In this document: positions 18,812 through 25,305 of the stretch, in pieces | How positions within the stretch are numbered: position 1 is the stretch's first letter | How the letters are laid out: each line of letters starts with the position of its first letter | From: Clostridia bacterium | GTDB taxonomy: Bacteria > Bacillota > Clostridia > UMGS1883 | DNA length: 64,000 nt | Assembly: GCA_017505525.1 (NCBI GenBank) | Contig: JAFVPB010000039.1 | Span: 124,001 to 188,000 of the forward strand | Direction of reading: 5' to 3' | Program-made: the position numbers and the translations under genes | Notes under the pieces: generated by a model | Databases searched by the model: none | Seen by the model: the letters and a program-made list of their open reading frames with translations, nothing else | Told to the model about the DNA's origin: nothing

Positions 18812-18840
18812 TTGCAAATGTTGGGAGACTATGGTATACT
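18812..18840 (+). promoter_or_regulatory. Promoter of the radical SAM / Cys-rich peptide operon
   Basis: TTGCAA (18812-18817), 17-base spacer, TATACT (18835-18840), 61 bases before the first gene. It is the only strong promoter seen for the seven genes. Confidence 0.65.
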
Positions 18841-18901
18841 ACTTAATATTAGCAATTGTATTCAAAAAGTATAATATTAAAATGATTCGGAGGAGTTAAA
18901 T

Positions 18902-19198
18902 ATGGACATTAAAACACTGATGAACAATCTGATCGAAGAAGAAATCTCAAAAATTGAACAAAATGGCGAAAAGATAAAACTCAAAACACTCTTAAAGAAA
19001 AGAATTATCTATACTTTGATTTTCGGAGCGATATTTGCCGTTTTACTTGTTATCAATAATATCCCTTTAGCATTTGTTGATTTGTTAATCTATTTTATGA
19101 TGCTTTATAAAACAAACAATGTAAGTATAATCACCAATCTTGCTAAACAATCGCCCGACACACCTGTTGTAGACATTATAAAAGGAGATATGAAATAA
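18902..19198 (+). CDS. Small membrane protein, first gene of the radical SAM operon
   Basis: This 98-residue protein has a charged helical N-terminus (EEEISKIEQNGEKIKLK) and two hydrophobic segments (about residues 34-70), followed by a short soluble tail. I do not recognise a family. GGAGGAG precedes the ATG. The final stop base overlaps the start of the next gene (TAATG), so the two are translationally coupled and probably act in the same membrane process. Confidence 0.75.
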   Translation: MDIKTLMNNLIEEEISKIEQNGEKIKLKTLLKKRIIYTLIFGAIFAVLLVINNIPLAFVDLLIYFMMLYKTNNVSIITNLAKQSPDTPVVDIIKGDMK

Positions 19199-20460
19199 TG
19201 AGTAGTACAAAACAACAAAAGAAAAATGTTATCATAGCTGCCATTGTTGCCGTAGTTCTATTCTTTGGATATGTTATTTCTCAAAATGTTTCATTCAAAA
19301 CTGAATGGAAATATGTAGAATACAACAACGGATATAAGCTTGTTTCTTATACCCAAGCATTTAATGATAATACAAAAGAAATATCTATCCCGGCTCAATA
19401 TGAAGGTAAAGATGTTGTAGCTATTGAAGATAAGGCATTTTATAAAAATAAAAAAATCGAAAAAGTAATTATACCCGACACCGTAACCGAACTTGGTGCA
19501 TCTGTTTTTAAGGAATGTAAGAATTTAAAAACTGTTGAGATGAGCAAAAACATATCGGTTATGGGCGGAGAATGTTTTAAAGATTGCAAATCATTAACTG
19601 CTATTATATTACCTGATACACTTACTGAAATTCGTGGAGAAACTTTTATGGGGTGTTCTTCCCTAAAAAAAGTAATTTTACCAAAAAATATCACAGAAAT
19701 CAAAGGCAATACTTTTGAAAATTGTTCATCTTTGGAAAGCATTGAAATCCCAAGTGGAGTAACAAGAATTGCTGCCCACGCATTTTATGGTTGCACTTCG
19801 CTTTCTAATGTATTTGTTCCTGATACGGTTAATGAAATTGGAAGCTCTGCTTTTAGAAAGTGTGATAGCCTGGAGAGTATTGAACTTCCCGCATGGGTTT
19901 CAATAAATGAAAGAGCATTTAAAGAAAGTCCGACTCAAATTAGATATAAAGGTGACGTTAGATCCATTTTGAATTATTATGAAACAGAGATTGAAATTGA
20001 CAAAACTGCTGAAGAAATCATTGCAGAATACAGCTCTGAATTTAATGAAATAGATGATGAGCTATCAACAATAGATTCACAAGAAAAAATCGAATCACTA
20101 TTTGTTGTTTGTAATGTGGTTAACGGAATAAAAATACCGGATATATCTACTTTAGATAATTCTGTTTGGATTAGTGAAACTTCCCGTAGTGACAGATGGG
20201 AAATTATTAATACAAAAAAAGAAATCCTCAGTTTTTTGAAAAAAGCAGAAGTCATTGGGGTTAAAAAAGTGATGTTTATATTAGATAATAAAAAAGTAGG
20301 AGAAAGTTCAGGAACTATCGCAGGATGGTCATTCGAGATAGATGAAGTTATAGACGGTTATTCAAATGGTGATTGGACATTTGATGATGCATATGAATTA
20401 TATGCAGAAGAAAAAGCAGAACGGATGAAAAAAATGGCAGAAAGCATCATTGGAGAATAG
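19198..20460 (+). CDS. Membrane-anchored BspA-type leucine-rich-repeat protein
   Basis: This 420-residue protein has one N-terminal membrane anchor (about 10-30) and an exposed leucine-rich-repeat region of the BspA/LRR_5 type (about 60-245). Repeat units read IPDTVTELGASVFKECKNL, LPDTLTEIRGETFMGCSSL and similar. A helical acidic segment and an unassigned alpha/beta C-terminal domain follow. BspA-type repeats mediate protein binding. In this operon the protein could bind the modified peptide or a target outside the cell; that is inference. Two bases separate it from the radical SAM gene. Confidence 0.82.
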   Translation: MSSTKQQKKNVIIAAIVAVVLFFGYVISQNVSFKTEWKYVEYNNGYKLVSYTQAFNDNTKEISIPAQYEGKDVVAIEDKAFYKNKKIEKVIIPDTVTELGASVFKECKNLKTVEMSKNISVMGGECFKDCKSLTAIILPDTLTEIRGETFMGCSSLKKVILPKNITEIKGNTFENCSSLESIEIPSGVTRIAAHAFYGCTSLSNVFVPDTVNEIGSSAFRKCDSLESIELPAWVSINERAFKESPTQIRYKGDVRSILNYYETEIEIDKTAEEIIAEYSSEFNEIDDELSTIDSQEKIESLFVVCNVVNGIKIPDISTLDNSVWISETSRSDRWEIINTKKEILSFLKKAEVIGVKKVMFILDNKKVGESSGTIAGWSFEIDEVIDGYSNGDWTFDDAYELYAEEKAERMKKMAESIIGE

Positions 20461-20462
20461 TT

Positions 20463-22211
20463 ATGAGCAAATTTATACACATTTTATATGTGCCTACAAT
20501 GAATTGCAATATGAAATGTCGATATTGTTATCTTGGGGAAAATACAAATGAACTTAAAAGCGACAAAGGCTATTTAGAAACATTGGAGTTTGCCGTTAAT
20601 AAGTTCAGAGAAGCTGATGTTATTCCGTTTAACATATCGCTTCACGGTGGTGAGGTTACTACTTTAGCCCCCGACAATTTCAGAGATATTGTAGAGTACA
20701 TAAGCAATTATTATAAAGCAAACGGTCAGATGCTTTCAGAAAATGGATTTAAGACAAATAAACCACACATCAAAACCAATCTTTTTAATATTGAGAAACA
20801 TATTGATGCAATAAGAGAATTTGATGTTAGTATCAGCGGAAGCCTTGACTTACCTTTCTCCCTTCATGATAAATATCGTATTACCAAAGGCGGGAAAGGA
20901 ACTTTAGAAACTATATTAAAAAATGTTTCATTGTTAGCCGAATTACCAAACAGAAAAAAAGTATCGGCTACGATCTTTCAGGAACATTTTGAATATCTTG
21001 ATGAAATAGTTAATGATATAAAGTGGTTAGCAGAAAATACTTGTCTTAACATGAATGACTTTAACTTTATGATTGGGTTTGAACCTCAATTAGAAAGTGA
21101 AGTGAAACTTACGGCTCTACCCGAAGAGAATCAAGTTGCTTTGTATCAGAGGATGCACAAGGAATTTACCGGAACTGACTTAGAAGAAGGATTAAACAAT
21201 GCTTGGTTTGCTGAGTTTACCCCTGCATATTGCACCAACTGCGATAATTGTGGTGAGAAATTCTTCTTGTTAGAGAAAAATGGAGATATTTATTCATGTG
21301 TTAGAGGGCAAGGAAATCCTGATTTTTACTACGGTAACATTTATAATGATTCAGTAGAGGAAATCTTAAAAACAGCTAAAACAAAAATATTCCTTGCTCA
21401 TAATCGTCAAGGAATAAGTGAAGAATGTATCTCTTGTGAACATTTGCACTTATGTAAAACGGGATGTCCTTTCGTCAAGAATGTATATAGCAGCAGCAAG
21501 TCATATACTTGTAGATTACAAAAGGAAATTTACAGGGATAAAGATTATGATGAGATTCCTGATAATTTTGCCTATTACTATTTGCTCAAGAACCATCCAA
21601 CACTTGCTCCTGAACATTTAAAGTATGAACCTGAAGAAAATAGTCTTGAGTATTTAATTAAAAGGGATGCAAAACTTCAGGAAGTATATAATCCAAATGC
21701 CTTTATACTGTCTGTTGATGGACAAGAATATAAGCTTGAATCACAAATTCTAAAAAGAACAAGAGAATTTATATTTATCAGTAAAAAAAGTGTGATTAAG
21801 CTTTATATTAAAGAAGAAACGATGGATGCTCTTTCTGATTATCCAATCAACAACTCACTATTTATTCAGCTTTTAAGTGGCGATACGGTTGTATATGGCG
21901 ATGAGCAGAGAGAAAAACAAGAACACATTATGACACATCAAATTTTCAAAGGTACACTTATGAAGGAATCTTCTGACAAAGATGGATTTTATTGTGTTGA
22001 CTTATCAGGACTTCTTGCTCTGTACGGAGATAAATTATCAAAAACGAACGCAAATAATTTATTCTTCACAACGTCAGCGTTAAGAGATTATCATTACACA
22101 AAACAAAAGAACAATGGATATTATCACATAAATGCAATCAATTTACCATTTCAAAATATTGAATTGTATTATTTAAATTTAGATGATATGGAGGAAGAAA
22201 ATAATGCTTAA
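20463..22211 (+). CDS. Radical SAM/SPASM peptide maturase with an extra C-terminal domain
   Basis: This 582-residue protein probably makes a radical-based modification on a peptide or protein. The SAM-cluster motif CNMKCRYC (Cys15, Cys19, Cys22) is followed by the LHGGE glycine motif. A SPASM-type region (about 255-365) with clustered cysteines (CTNCDNC, YSCVRG, CISCEHLHLCKTGC) would hold auxiliary Fe-S clusters. Residues from about 370 to 582 form an additional beta-rich domain not usual in SPASM enzymes, perhaps for substrate binding. Its last 8 bases overlap the start of the Cys-rich small protein, which makes that protein its likely substrate. Anaerobic sulfatase maturases share the fold, but no sulfatase is nearby. 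Confidence 0.88.
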   Translation: MSKFIHILYVPTMNCNMKCRYCYLGENTNELKSDKGYLETLEFAVNKFREADVIPFNISLHGGEVTTLAPDNFRDIVEYISNYYKANGQMLSENGFKTNKPHIKTNLFNIEKHIDAIREFDVSISGSLDLPFSLHDKYRITKGGKGTLETILKNVSLLAELPNRKKVSATIFQEHFEYLDEIVNDIKWLAENTCLNMNDFNFMIGFEPQLESEVKLTALPEENQVALYQRMHKEFTGTDLEEGLNNAWFAEFTPAYCTNCDNCGEKFFLLEKNGDIYSCVRGQGNPDFYYGNIYNDSVEEILKTAKTKIFLAHNRQGISEECISCEHLHLCKTGCPFVKNVYSSSKSYTCRLQKEIYRDKDYDEIPDNFAYYYLLKNHPTLAPEHLKYEPEENSLEYLIKRDAKLQEVYNPNAFILSVDGQEYKLESQILKRTREFIFISKKSVIKLYIKEETMDALSDYPINNSLFIQLLSGDTVVYGDEQREKQEHIMTHQIFKGTLMKESSDKDGFYCVDLSGLLALYGDKLSKTNANNLFFTTSALRDYHYTKQKNNGYYHINAINLPFQNIELYYLNLDDMEEENNA

Positions 22212-22572
22212 TATCAAACCAAAGACTTATAATGATGTTGTTCGACTTTCGAGATGTATGGAATTAAAAAAATACATTCCGGACTTGACAGACGAAAAAA
22301 TAGAGGAAATGTATGAATATATGAAAAAAGATTCAAATAATAAGATTTCTGTAACACCTGAAATGATTTCTTTTGTAAACGCATCAGGAGAAACAGAAAG
22401 TGCAACTGTTTTAGAAACGGCACCAACAGGTATATCATTTGACCACATTATTCTTGGTGCAGCAGCTTATAATGTTATGCAACGCCCAACGGGTGATTCA
22501 AGTGGTTGTGGAAGTAGTTGTAGCGGTTGTTCAACCAATAATAACAATAACAACAATAATAATAACGGATAA
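22204..22572 (+). CDS. Probable precursor peptide with Cys-rich core and poly-Asn tail
   Basis: This 122-residue protein has a helical, charged N-terminal part (LKKYIPDLTDEKIEEMYEYM) resembling a leader and a middle region ending in HIILGAAAYNVM. The tail is GCGSSCSGCST followed by ten asparagines and a final Gly. The three tail cysteines (102, 106, 109) form Cx3Cx2C. Glycine, serine and cysteine-rich tails next to radical SAM/SPASM enzymes are a hallmark of RiPP precursors such as thioether peptides. The Asn run mixes AAT and AAC codons (22537-22566). GGAGG precedes ATG 22204; the frame also extends to 22183. No protease or dedicated exporter is adjacent. An Fe-S-binding small protein is an alternative. 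Confidence 0.75.
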   Translation: MLNIKPKTYNDVVRLSRCMELKKYIPDLTDEKIEEMYEYMKKDSNNKISVTPEMISFVNASGETESATVLETAPTGISFDHIILGAAAYNVMQRPTGDSSGCGSSCSGCSTNNNNNNNNNNG

Positions 22573-22586
22573 TCCGGAGGAATACG

Positions 22587-23288
22587 ATGCGAAAAAAGAT
22601 ATATCAAATGGTTCATGTGTACGAAGGGAACTTATTAAGTGTAGCTTATAAGTGGTTTATGATAGCAGTAATTGCAATAAGCCTTCTTCCTCTTACCGTT
22701 AAGGGTACAAGCAATATATTTAAGACTATAGACTATACTTGTCTTGCAATATACATAATAGACTATTCTTTAAGGTGGATTGCTGCTGACTATAAATTTA
22801 ATAAACACCATTGGACTTCCTTTGCTCGCTATCCGTTTAGAATAATTTCCATTATAGATTTAATGTCTATAATTGCTTTATTATGTCCTTTACTTGGATT
22901 GTTTAAATATTCTTCATTTACGGAAGTTCTGAAGGTGTTCCGCATTGTGAGAATATTCAGATATTCCAAAGGTATCAGAACCATAATTGATATATTGAAA
23001 AGTTCTAAAAAAGCATTGTTTGCCGTAGGTTCGTTAGCGGTAGGCTATATTCTGATTTCAGCATTGGTTGTATTCAATGTGGAGCCGGATACTTTTAACT
23101 CTTTCTTTGATGCAGTATATTGGTCAACCGTATCACTTACAACAGTTGGATATGGAGACATATATCCGGTAACAGTTATTGGAAGAACTATTGCAATGCT
23201 TTCCTCATTTTTTGGAATAGCCATTGTTGCTCTCCCTGCCGGTGTTGTTACTGCCGAATATATGAAATCACTTAGTGAGAAAGAATAG
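22587..23288 (+). CDS. Voltage-gated potassium channel
   Basis: This 233-residue channel subunit has six membrane segments. The S4 voltage sensor is visible as VLKVFRIVRIFRYSKGIR with Arg/Lys spaced about every third residue. The pore filter is TTVGYGDIYP, followed by S6 with the expected glycines. There is no regulatory RCK domain. Tetramers should pass K+ across the cell membrane. It starts 14 bases after the Cys-rich peptide gene with GGAGG upstream, so it is firmly in the operon. Its place here suggests a link between the peptide and membrane potential, for example target, immunity or sensing; that is inference. Confidence 0.92.
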   Translation: MRKKIYQMVHVYEGNLLSVAYKWFMIAVIAISLLPLTVKGTSNIFKTIDYTCLAIYIIDYSLRWIAADYKFNKHHWTSFARYPFRIISIIDLMSIIALLCPLLGLFKYSSFTEVLKVFRIVRIFRYSKGIRTIIDILKSSKKALFAVGSLAVGYILISALVVFNVEPDTFNSFFDAVYWSTVSLTTVGYGDIYPVTVIGRTIAMLSSFFGIAIVALPAGVVTAEYMKSLSEKE

Positions 23289-23295
23289 GAAAAGT

Positions 23296-23310
23296 GATAA
23301 TCGTTATCGC
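23296..23310 (+). promoter_or_regulatory. Fur-box-like palindrome inside the operon
   Basis: TGATAATCGTTATCG matches the 15-base Fur consensus TGATAAT-N-ATTATCA at 12 of 14 defined positions. It lies between the channel gene and the gene at 23352. No convincing -35/-10 pair was found beside it, so it may be chance. Confidence 0.35.
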
Positions 23311-23351
23311 TGTTAATTCTTAAAATAGAATGAGAATATGGGAGGTTAATT

Positions 23352-24155
23352 ATGTATAAAGAAGAATTACTAAAACAAGAATTATATGTAGTTGTTTTGA
23401 ATATAACCCAAACGCCATATATGATGAATGGTGGATTCTTTATGTTATATACAGACAAGGAAAAAGCAATGAAATTTGCTCGAAATATTAACGGAAAAGA
23501 AAGTATAAAGTATGGCGAAGCAAGCGTAATAAACACGTCGCTAATAACAAATAACGAATTATTTTTTGATATAATGATTCGTATGGGATGCGATAGGTTT
23601 TTACTCAATGGCAATGGAGAAATAATAAAATTTGGAGATTCAAGCTTGCAAGTTGCTAAAGGTCGAAAAGAAATATATGAGAGTTATCTATTACACAAAA
23701 GACTATCTAAAAGTTCTCATATTGGAAAGGCAAAGGCAGCACAAATTCAACGATTAGAAAGCATCTTGAAAGCACCTGCGAACAAAGGAGCAGTTAGTGA
23801 ATTTTTTAATATGTTAGGTCAACTTTCTTCTTGTTTTAAAGCGATAGATAGCGGCATGACCGCAACAACAAGAGTAAATAGTAGTATAGGAACACTTGTA
23901 AATGGTGTTAATGTACAAAATTATAATAAAAAGATGTCTTATGGAAGATTGAGTAGAAATTGGGGTATCGCTTCAATCCTGCTTTATGCATGGTTCTTTC
24001 CGCCGATAGTTGCAATCGTTTATGGAATAAGATCTATATTGTTTACAAAATCTAATAATGAACCAATTGATAAGAAAGCAATATGGGGATTGGTTCTTGC
24101 GGGATTTGGTTTATTTATGTTATATGCTATGATGAGTGGTATGTCTAACAGTTAG
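23352..24155 (+). CDS. Hypothetical protein with two C-terminal membrane segments
   Basis: This 267-residue protein has a soluble N-terminal domain (about 1-105, with YVVVLNITQTPYMM and FLLNGNGEIIKF), reminiscent of small SseB-like alpha/beta domains but too diverged to assign. A helical linker contains GKAKAAQIQRLESIL. Two hydrophobic segments near the C-terminus (about 208-230 and 244-263) hold it in the membrane. GGGAGG precedes the ATG. It lies between the channel and the second radical SAM gene in the same operon. Confidence 0.7.
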   Translation: MYKEELLKQELYVVVLNITQTPYMMNGGFFMLYTDKEKAMKFARNINGKESIKYGEASVINTSLITNNELFFDIMIRMGCDRFLLNGNGEIIKFGDSSLQVAKGRKEIYESYLLHKRLSKSSHIGKAKAAQIQRLESILKAPANKGAVSEFFNMLGQLSSCFKAIDSGMTATTRVNSSIGTLVNGVNVQNYNKKMSYGRLSRNWGIASILLYAWFFPPIVAIVYGIRSILFTKSNNEPIDKKAIWGLVLAGFGLFMLYAMMSGMSNS

Positions 24156-24168
24156 GGGTGGATTTGCT

Positions 24169-25212
24169 GTGATTGAATGTGCGAATAGTAATCGATTGCT
24201 TATGCAATTTCATATTACAGGTAAATGCAATTTGCAATGTAAACATTGTTATAGAGTCGAGGGCGATGTTGAGCCATTATCATATAAAGACATTATAAAT
24301 GTTTTCAACCAATTTTTTGATTTGAGAAATACCTATAACGAAGAACATAAAATCAAAAAAAGAGGTCATATCAATATAACAGGTGGAGAACCCTTTATCC
24401 GAAAAGATATTTATGATATATTACAGTTTCTTGGTGAGAGTAATGATAGGGTTACATATGGTGTCTTATCCAATGGTACACCAATAGATGACACTATGAT
24501 TAAGACACTCATAGAAACGAAAGCTTCATTTGTTCAGCTCAGTATTGACGGTAATCGTGAAACACACGATTTCATGAGAAAACCGGGCGATTACGATAGA
24601 ACATTTAAAACAGCAGCTACTCTTGAGAAAGCAGGTATTAAAACATTTATTAGTTTTACGGCAAATGCGTCTAATTATAAACATATACCCTCTGTTGCTC
24701 GTAAATGCCGACAAGCTAAAATAACAAAGCTTTGGTCTGATAGACTTATTCCAATTGGAAATGGCTCAGAATTATCAGATTTAGAAATAACAAAAGAAAT
24801 ATTGCCTGAATATGTAAAGTATCTTAAAAAGGCACAAGGCAATTTCTTAACAAAAAAACTGTATCCCAAAACTCAAGTCGCATCTGAACGAGCTTTGCAA
24901 TTTTTGAATAATATAAATTCGCAAATTTATTCTTGTAAAGCTGCGGAAAGTTTTTTAACGGTTGATGAGTTCGGGCAAGTAATGCCGTGCCGTAGAATGC
25001 CAATTGTTTGCGGTAATGTGTTTGATTCTACACTTAAAGATATATATTATAACAACGAAGTTTTTATAGATTTAAGAAATGCGTCATTGCCTAAAGAATG
25101 TTCAGGGTGTGTTTATAATGTATTCTGTAAAGGCGGAGCTAAATGTCAAAGCTATGCAAAATATAATGATTATAATCGTGCAGATCCAAGTTGCCCGATA
25201 AAACTAAACTAA
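24169..25212 (+). CDS. Second radical SAM/SPASM protein
   Basis: This 347-residue enzyme has the cluster motif CNLQCKHC (Cys20, Cys24, Cys27), the ITGGEP motif, the strand motif LSIDGNRETHD and a C-terminal SPASM region (YSCKAAESF, VMPCRRMPIVCGN, KECSGCVYNVFCKGG, CPI). It resembles peptide-modifying enzymes of the PqqE/AlbA/HxsC type. GTG 24169 is chosen because AGGGGTGG (24154-24161) is 7 bases upstream; the open frame begins at 24136 but overlaps the previous gene. Two distinct radical SAM enzymes in one operon suggest sequential or double modification of one substrate. Confidence 0.88.
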   Translation: MIECANSNRLLMQFHITGKCNLQCKHCYRVEGDVEPLSYKDIINVFNQFFDLRNTYNEEHKIKKRGHINITGGEPFIRKDIYDILQFLGESNDRVTYGVLSNGTPIDDTMIKTLIETKASFVQLSIDGNRETHDFMRKPGDYDRTFKTAATLEKAGIKTFISFTANASNYKHIPSVARKCRQAKITKLWSDRLIPIGNGSELSDLEITKEILPEYVKYLKKAQGNFLTKKLYPKTQVASERALQFLNNINSQIYSCKAAESFLTVDEFGQVMPCRRMPIVCGNVFDSTLKDIYYNNEVFIDLRNASLPKECSGCVYNVFCKGGAKCQSYAKYNDYNRADPSCPIKLN

Positions 25213-25221
25213 ACAGAACAC

Positions 25222-25253
25222 AAAAGGACAATGGAATTTTCCATTGTCCTTTT
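25222..25253 (+). terminator. Terminator of the radical SAM operon
   Basis: AAAAGGACAATGGAA (25222-25236) pairs perfectly with TTCCATTGTCCTTTT (25239-25253), starting 10 bases after the last stop codon. Confidence 0.85.
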
Positions 25254-25305
25254 AATAATGTCAGGTGTTTTTTAGTTGTGTGTCAAACTCTTTTATCAAA
25301 TTATA

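Follow-up and report, generated by a model that had tools for sequence, protein, structure and literature searches.

What does a radical S-adenosylmethionine (SAM) enzyme do when its nearest partner is a protein that ends in ten consecutive asparagines? The question is raised by a seven-gene, plus-strand operon (18902–25212) in a 64,000-nucleotide stretch of a Clostridia bacterium genome (assembly GCA_017505525.1, contig JAFVPB010000039.1, positions 124,001–188,000), hereafter the window. A preliminary description, made from the DNA letters, had located all seven open reading frames (ORFs) correctly and interpreted them as a candidate undescribed system in which two SPASM enzymes mature a small Cys-rich protein. 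Our analysis points to one of these enzymes, rSAM1 (20463–22211, plus strand), as a dedicated modifying enzyme for C-terminal Asn tails, a reading to which we assign a probability of about 0.6; a crosslinked, protease-resistant tip is a tentative product. The predicted substrate is the 122-residue poly-Asn protein (22204–22572, plus strand), whose start codon at 22204 overlaps the rSAM1 stop codon at 22211.

Asparagine tails encoded beside rSAM1

An rSAM1 alignment, run against about 85,000 species genomes, returned at least 54 loci of the family. Most bacterial loci are metagenome assemblies, for which taxon labels are uncertain; those listed come mostly from rumen and gut Bacilli and Clostridia, with others from Bacteroidales, Slackia, Campylobacter, one Campylobacteraceae genome and Beggiatoa. 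A neighbour with a terminal run of at least six Asn is present in 45 of the 54 loci listed. Among the remainder, contigs break within the Asn run in three and end before the gene in two, three are Campylobacter prophages with fibre ends NNNNY, GNNS or GNNF, and one (L018) stops before any Asn run, its near-identical sister copy L019 leaving the contig at eight Asn. The gene directly after rSAM1 in the bacterial loci encodes a Ser/Gly-rich linker and then 6–20 Asn, mostly with no more than one residue beyond, and the core gene order is transmembrane leucine-rich-repeat (TM-LRR) protein, rSAM1, poly-Asn protein. Contigs stop inside the Asn codon run in L013, L019, L020, L027, L031 and L044, so public genomes probably list fewer poly-Asn genes than exist. 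In the close relative L047 (8001–9734), the rSAM1 frame contains one in-frame stop after RLD, reflecting an assembly error or a decaying copy.

The poly-Asn protein comprises a carrier domain (residues 1–91), a Ser/Gly/Cys linker and the Asn tail, the window protein ending in GCGSSCSGCST, ten Asn and then Gly. Across 38 aligned homologues, found downstream of rSAM1 in bacterial loci, the invariant columns are five central Asn, marking the ten-codon run (22537–22566, plus strand) as the predicted modification site; identity to the window's carrier domain is only 16–44%. Judging from this alignment, what is conserved and informative is the run of Asn at the C terminus, not Cys. The window protein has three Cys that are peculiar to its own tail, 35 of the 38 homologues have none in their last 45 residues, and in L007 and L047, the closest relatives, the tail is free of Cys; Cys richness as the defining trait was accordingly abandoned. 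Asn codons are mixed in each of the 47 tails (328 AAT, 274 AAC) and alternate about as often as random mixing predicts or slightly more, which indicates that selection acts on the protein, for Asn itself. The same mixture rules out microsatellite slippage or an artefact as the origin of the run.

These neighbour counts are anchored on rSAM1; a precursor-side search, a search for (AAY)8 tracts and the phage fibre control described below are not. Searching 391 genomes with the carrier domain alone recovered G000 and G159, the only two of them with rSAM1, plus a weak match inside a 1,003-residue ORF of G216. Homologues of the 122-residue protein were thus not found mostly away from radical SAM genes, and the proposed tie between protein and enzyme is upheld by their co-occurrence in the same two genomes. 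Of 382 genomes in the class, 49 contain (AAY)8 tracts; among 30 of these taken further, an ORF that stops no more than one residue from the run is present in the rSAM1 genome G159 alone. The genome of the window itself gave three overlapping matches, the number expected from a single ten-Asn run. None of 743 other ORFs of at least 100 residues in the rSAM1 loci ends in NNNN, the five raw matches all being the partner gene itself. The tract search and the ORF count lead us to reject poly-Asn C termini as a common background. By comparison across phyla and in phages the enzyme–tail pairing is well supported, and rSAM1 very probably acts on the Asn tail.

Phage tail fibres and other carriers

Mu-like prophages of Campylobacter carry rSAM1 in their tail-fibre module, at 31–35% identity. 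Two genes upstream of it lies the fibre gene, whose product ends STNNNNY, SSNNNNY, ATNNNNY, STGNNF, SMGNNF, SMGNNS or, in phage locus L154, SCNNNNN. All nine matched fibre loci with the cassette end in an Asn motif, whereas 17 viral contigs that share the fibre N terminus and lack both rSAM1 and the 211-residue gene preceding it encode fibres without an Asn end (SFMELR, LNRGHV, ILNVR and others). These control contigs are related and do not represent independent events; the on/off pattern is complete. The 211-residue protein (phrog_10241; L005:9351–9986) is encoded between the rSAM1 and Asn-tailed fibre genes of Campylobacter prophages and is missing wherever rSAM1 is missing; it is possibly a fibre chaperone or an enzyme adaptor. 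Protein searches of the phage collection yielded CAM-P21 as the only full-length relative. The Campylobacter phages CP220 and CPt10 are known to carry many radical SAM genes (PMC2853527).

An rSAM1 tree resolves three deep groups, comprising Campylobacter phages, Campylobacteraceae with Beggiatoa, and gut bacteria; because the branches are long, the joins between the groups are uncertain. Each group has its own carrier: the tail fibre (P0006), a 137–156-residue protein and a 120-residue protein, respectively. The two carriers of the Campylobacteraceae and Beggiatoa group are similar to each other, and no significant similarity was found between the 137–156-residue and 120-residue carriers. As far as sequence comparison can tell, the same tail is set on three carriers without detectable similarity, and is conserved while the carrier changes.

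On balance, we favour the view that this is an undescribed modification system, in which a radical SAM family would act on a C-terminal Asn homopolymer. The homopolymer would be a portable tag carried by unrelated proteins (in bacteria a membrane-linked protein, in phages the tail fibre end) and would alter receptor binding or stability. The claim of the preliminary description that the system is undescribed stands, in that no paper linking radical SAM enzymes with poly-Asn tails was found in the open-licence literature. If correct, this view would give radical SAM enzymes a new class of substrate, in which a homopolymer tag replaces a peptide with a defined core, and would predict enzymatic modification of the ends of phage tail fibres. 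A vague call of a Cys-rich ribosomally synthesized and post-translationally modified peptide (RiPP) would become a defined, searchable system in gut anaerobes. The pairing is easily testable, with a short tail, a single enzyme and a mass readout.

The enzyme and its candidate reactions

With its CxxxCxxC motif, seven-Cys SPASM motif and barrel fold (PF04055, PF13186), rSAM1 is a radical SAM/SPASM protein. C15/C19/C22, the auxiliary-cluster residues C257/C263/C279/C335 (AuxI) and C322/C325/C331/C350 (AuxII) are invariant in 51 sequences, and the enzyme thus retains all the ligands of three [4Fe-4S] clusters, on a fold of the anaerobic sulfatase-maturating enzyme (anSME) type. Among solved structures its model, with a predicted local distance difference test score (pLDDT) of 90.8, is nearest in fold to anSMEcpe (4k38; Z 27.6, 3.5 Å over 331 residues) and in sequence to 4k36 (1e-12). 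Asp277 of anSMEcpe, directly after AuxI C276, is the catalytic base; the equivalent position, 280, is V in 45, H in 4 and P in 2 of the 51 enzymes. Arg281 and Gln283 do not vary, and 48 of the 51 also carry an additional Cys, C260.

Residues 386–582 (21618–22208, plus strand) form a predicted C-terminal β-sandwich domain. Modelled alone (pLDDT 93.0, predicted template modelling score 0.87), it drew no match from PDB or BFVD with Foldseek at E ≤ 0.001, which is not proof of a new fold, and its best VIA-align scores (Z up to 6.4) were to assorted β-sandwiches; a known fold was therefore not clearly matched by either method. No winged-helix RiPP recognition element is listed for rSAM1, which leaves one possible, the extra domain being this β-sandwich. 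Because the domain is conserved from gut bacteria to the phage enzymes, a role in binding the tail or carrier is plausible, and we regard it as a probable recognition module.

We propose that rSAM1 binds the carrier domain, probably through its added β-sandwich domain, and receives the flexible Ser/Gly–Asn tail in the barrel, where the 5′-deoxyadenosyl radical would abstract hydrogen from Asn residues, often repeatedly along the run. The Asn radical could then be captured by a nearby Ser/Thr hydroxyl or Cys thiol to give a crosslinked, protease-resistant tip. Precedents are NxxcA, in which radical SAM chemistry forms a bond from Asn Cβ to Cys, and the rotapeptide TQQ, in which it forms an ether from Thr O to Gln Cα (PMC8326336). 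In the window tail, Cys could serve as donor. The phage product would be located at the end of the tail fibre, and the bacterial one on a membrane-linked protein made together with the TM-LRR protein and, frequently, with a membrane protein that has a Zn ribbon. Asn-centred hydrogen abstraction is the favoured step; crosslinking, drawn from analogy, is a tentative choice of chemistry that stands about level with a change in place. Position −1 of the run is Ser, Thr or Cys in 36 of the 38 bacterial tails, and in the phage tails read one of these residues lies within three residues of Asn.

Several points weigh against the proposal. The linker is 40% Ser/Thr in any case, so the idea of a Ser/Thr/Cys donor is weak and suggestive only. 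The phage motifs range down to GNN and hold 2–5 Asn, compared with 6–20 in bacteria. No neighbour of a divergent phage relative, L158 (34% identity over the C-terminal domain), ends in Asn, and rSAM1 could modify the carrier or another operon protein instead. In L158 (5507–8564, on a 97-kb viral contig), the rSAM1 relative follows a tail-type protein with the Cys-rich end CALCASCSGCPCSYSFPACKRDIYYNRYEWR and no Asn run, which may represent an ancestral or alternative substrate.

The reaction need not be a crosslink. Instead, rSAM1 may alter Asn in place, by epimerization to D-Asn, desaturation or oxidation at Cα or Cβ along the homopolymer, yielding a protease-resistant or reshaped backbone. 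In proteusins, many residues are targets of radical SAM epimerases (PMC5682303), and a uniform homopolymer fits one reaction repeated. Tails with rare Cys and no conserved aromatic residue fit as well, as do C260, a potential hydrogen-atom donor, and the presence of EpeE epimerases among the structural matches (Z 14). Yet rSAM1 lies far nearer anSME and CteB (Z 23–28) than EpeE in fold and sequence, and the mere 2–5 Asn of phage tails also count against this version. Thioether formation on tail Cys, of the sactipeptide or ranthipeptide kind implied by the preliminary description, could be imagined for the window tail, the SCNNNNN fibre end and the Cys-rich neighbour in L158; the scarcity of Cys in the other bacterial tails makes it improbable.

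Nor does the tail have to stay on its protein. In a classical RiPP pathway the modified tail would be cleaved and exported as a signalling or antimicrobial peptide, with the 91-residue carrier as leader, and the paired precursor and enzyme genes and the leader-like conserved N terminus are what such a pathway would have. We regard this as unlikely, since neither a protease nor an exporter is recurrent near the genes in the loci listed (genes elsewhere in the genome are not excluded), the tail has no variable core, and the phage tail terminates a structural fibre, for which cleavage is unneeded. Were the Asn tail a mere docking or aggregation element, with rSAM1 acting on another protein such as the LRR protein, phage loci should not combine enzyme and Asn tail as they do without any LRR protein, nor should the 17 fibres without rSAM1 lack Asn tails, and we give this version little credence. 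Modification of the Asn tail itself is the reading we retain.

Operon neighbours and known systems

The remaining genes of the operon, all on the plus strand, recur unevenly. A 98-residue membrane protein with a TM hairpin (18902–19198) and a membrane-anchored BspA-type LRR protein (19198–20460; LRR_5, PF13306, 3e-89), a core operon member, are the halves of a TM-LRR protein that L004, L007 and other relatives encode as a single fused chain; the 98-residue protein matches the N-terminal part of the L007 fusion (44%, 6e-11), and L008 holds a split copy that also matches it. Among the loci listed, an LRR homologue lies upstream of rSAM1 in most bacterial cases (47 loci in the cluster), and a Zn-ribbon membrane protein that the window lacks joins the core operon in 26. 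The domain search bore out the predicted LRR protein and K+ channel (22587–23288; six TM segments, voltage-gated type; PF00520, Ion_trans, 5.8e-25). The channel recurs only in L047 (64%), which leaves unsupported the earlier suggestion, resting on it, that the product acts on or with membrane potential. A 267-residue accessory protein with a C-terminal TM pair (23352–24155; weak DUF4190 match below cut-off, PF13828, 0.0017) had no homologue in the other loci sampled. The accessory protein rSAM2 (24169–25212; best NCBIfam match TIGR04340, ACGX) matches Radical_SAM and SPASM, as does rSAM1; it had no close relative in other sampled loci and none at E ≤ 1e-60 in 98 related genomes, and the idea of a two-enzyme system accordingly gives way to one in which only rSAM1 recurs.

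The proposed good promoter fared poorly, as the site at 18812 scores 9/12 and promoter-like sites in the region are no commoner than chance (45 observed, 35.8 ± 6.4 expected). The supposedly perfect terminator is a real 15-pair inverted repeat with T/A-rich flanks (25221–25254), intrinsic-terminator-like, but the scan assigned it to the minus strand and the plus-strand T run sits inside the stem. In sister genome G004, YchF is present and flanked by different genes, with no clean insertion site, and rSAM1 was not found in the same genus as the window genome; the G004 comparison is a sign, and only that, that the operon is accessory. Immediately upstream of the LRR–rSAM1 operon in the closest relative (L007:4552–6407) are Ser/Thr kinase-like and PP2C-type phosphatase-like genes. 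One ORF family adjoins the system in several Bacteroidales genomes (L029:7185–9557, L046:11811–14117, L031:3851–6502), one member showing the TIR-like motif KVFISYR; such ORFs adjoin only some Bacteroidales loci. A defence system was considered and rejected, PADLOC giving viperin-type radical SAM matches only (rSAM1 1e-7, rSAM2 5e-18) and none for the other genes.

Compared with known systems, rSAM1 shares its fold and all 11 Fe–S Cys with anSME (PDB 4k36–4k39) but differs in having V/H/P at the Asp277 site, an extra β-sandwich domain of about 200 residues and no sulfatase in the operon; it scores 107 bits against TIGR03942, under the curated cut-off of 349.45. A dedicated precursor gene beside a modifying enzyme is shared with RiPP systems. 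NxxcB/NxxcA and the PapB-type ranthipeptide maturases are likewise SPASM enzymes, but ranthipeptide maturases need Cys, and the donor Cys expected in a sactipeptide or ranthipeptide core is found in the last 45 residues of just 3 of the 38 homologues; rSAM1 scores 90 bits against the PapB model (cut-off 340). Cyclophane (triceptide) systems use an aromatic residue close to the acceptor for the crosslink; here the bacterial Asn runs contain no aromatic residue, Tyr is present in some linkers, and the phage tails finish in Y or F. The TQQ precursor also differs from the poly-Asn protein. CXXX-repeat (TIGR04115) and ACGX (TIGR04340) systems combine a SPASM maturase with a small repetitive partner, as here, but their repeats differ and the scores fall far under the cut-offs (rSAM1 against TIGR04115, 41 bits, cut-off 350; rSAM2 against TIGR04340, 145.6 bits, cut-off 400). 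The same family as rSAM1 is phrog_1802, a phage radical SAM domain-containing protein that both the window enzyme (1.9e-41) and its Campylobacter counterpart (6e-142) match over the full length. It is listed without a specific function and with no tie to Asn tails or bacterial operons, and our analysis now proposes a substrate for it.

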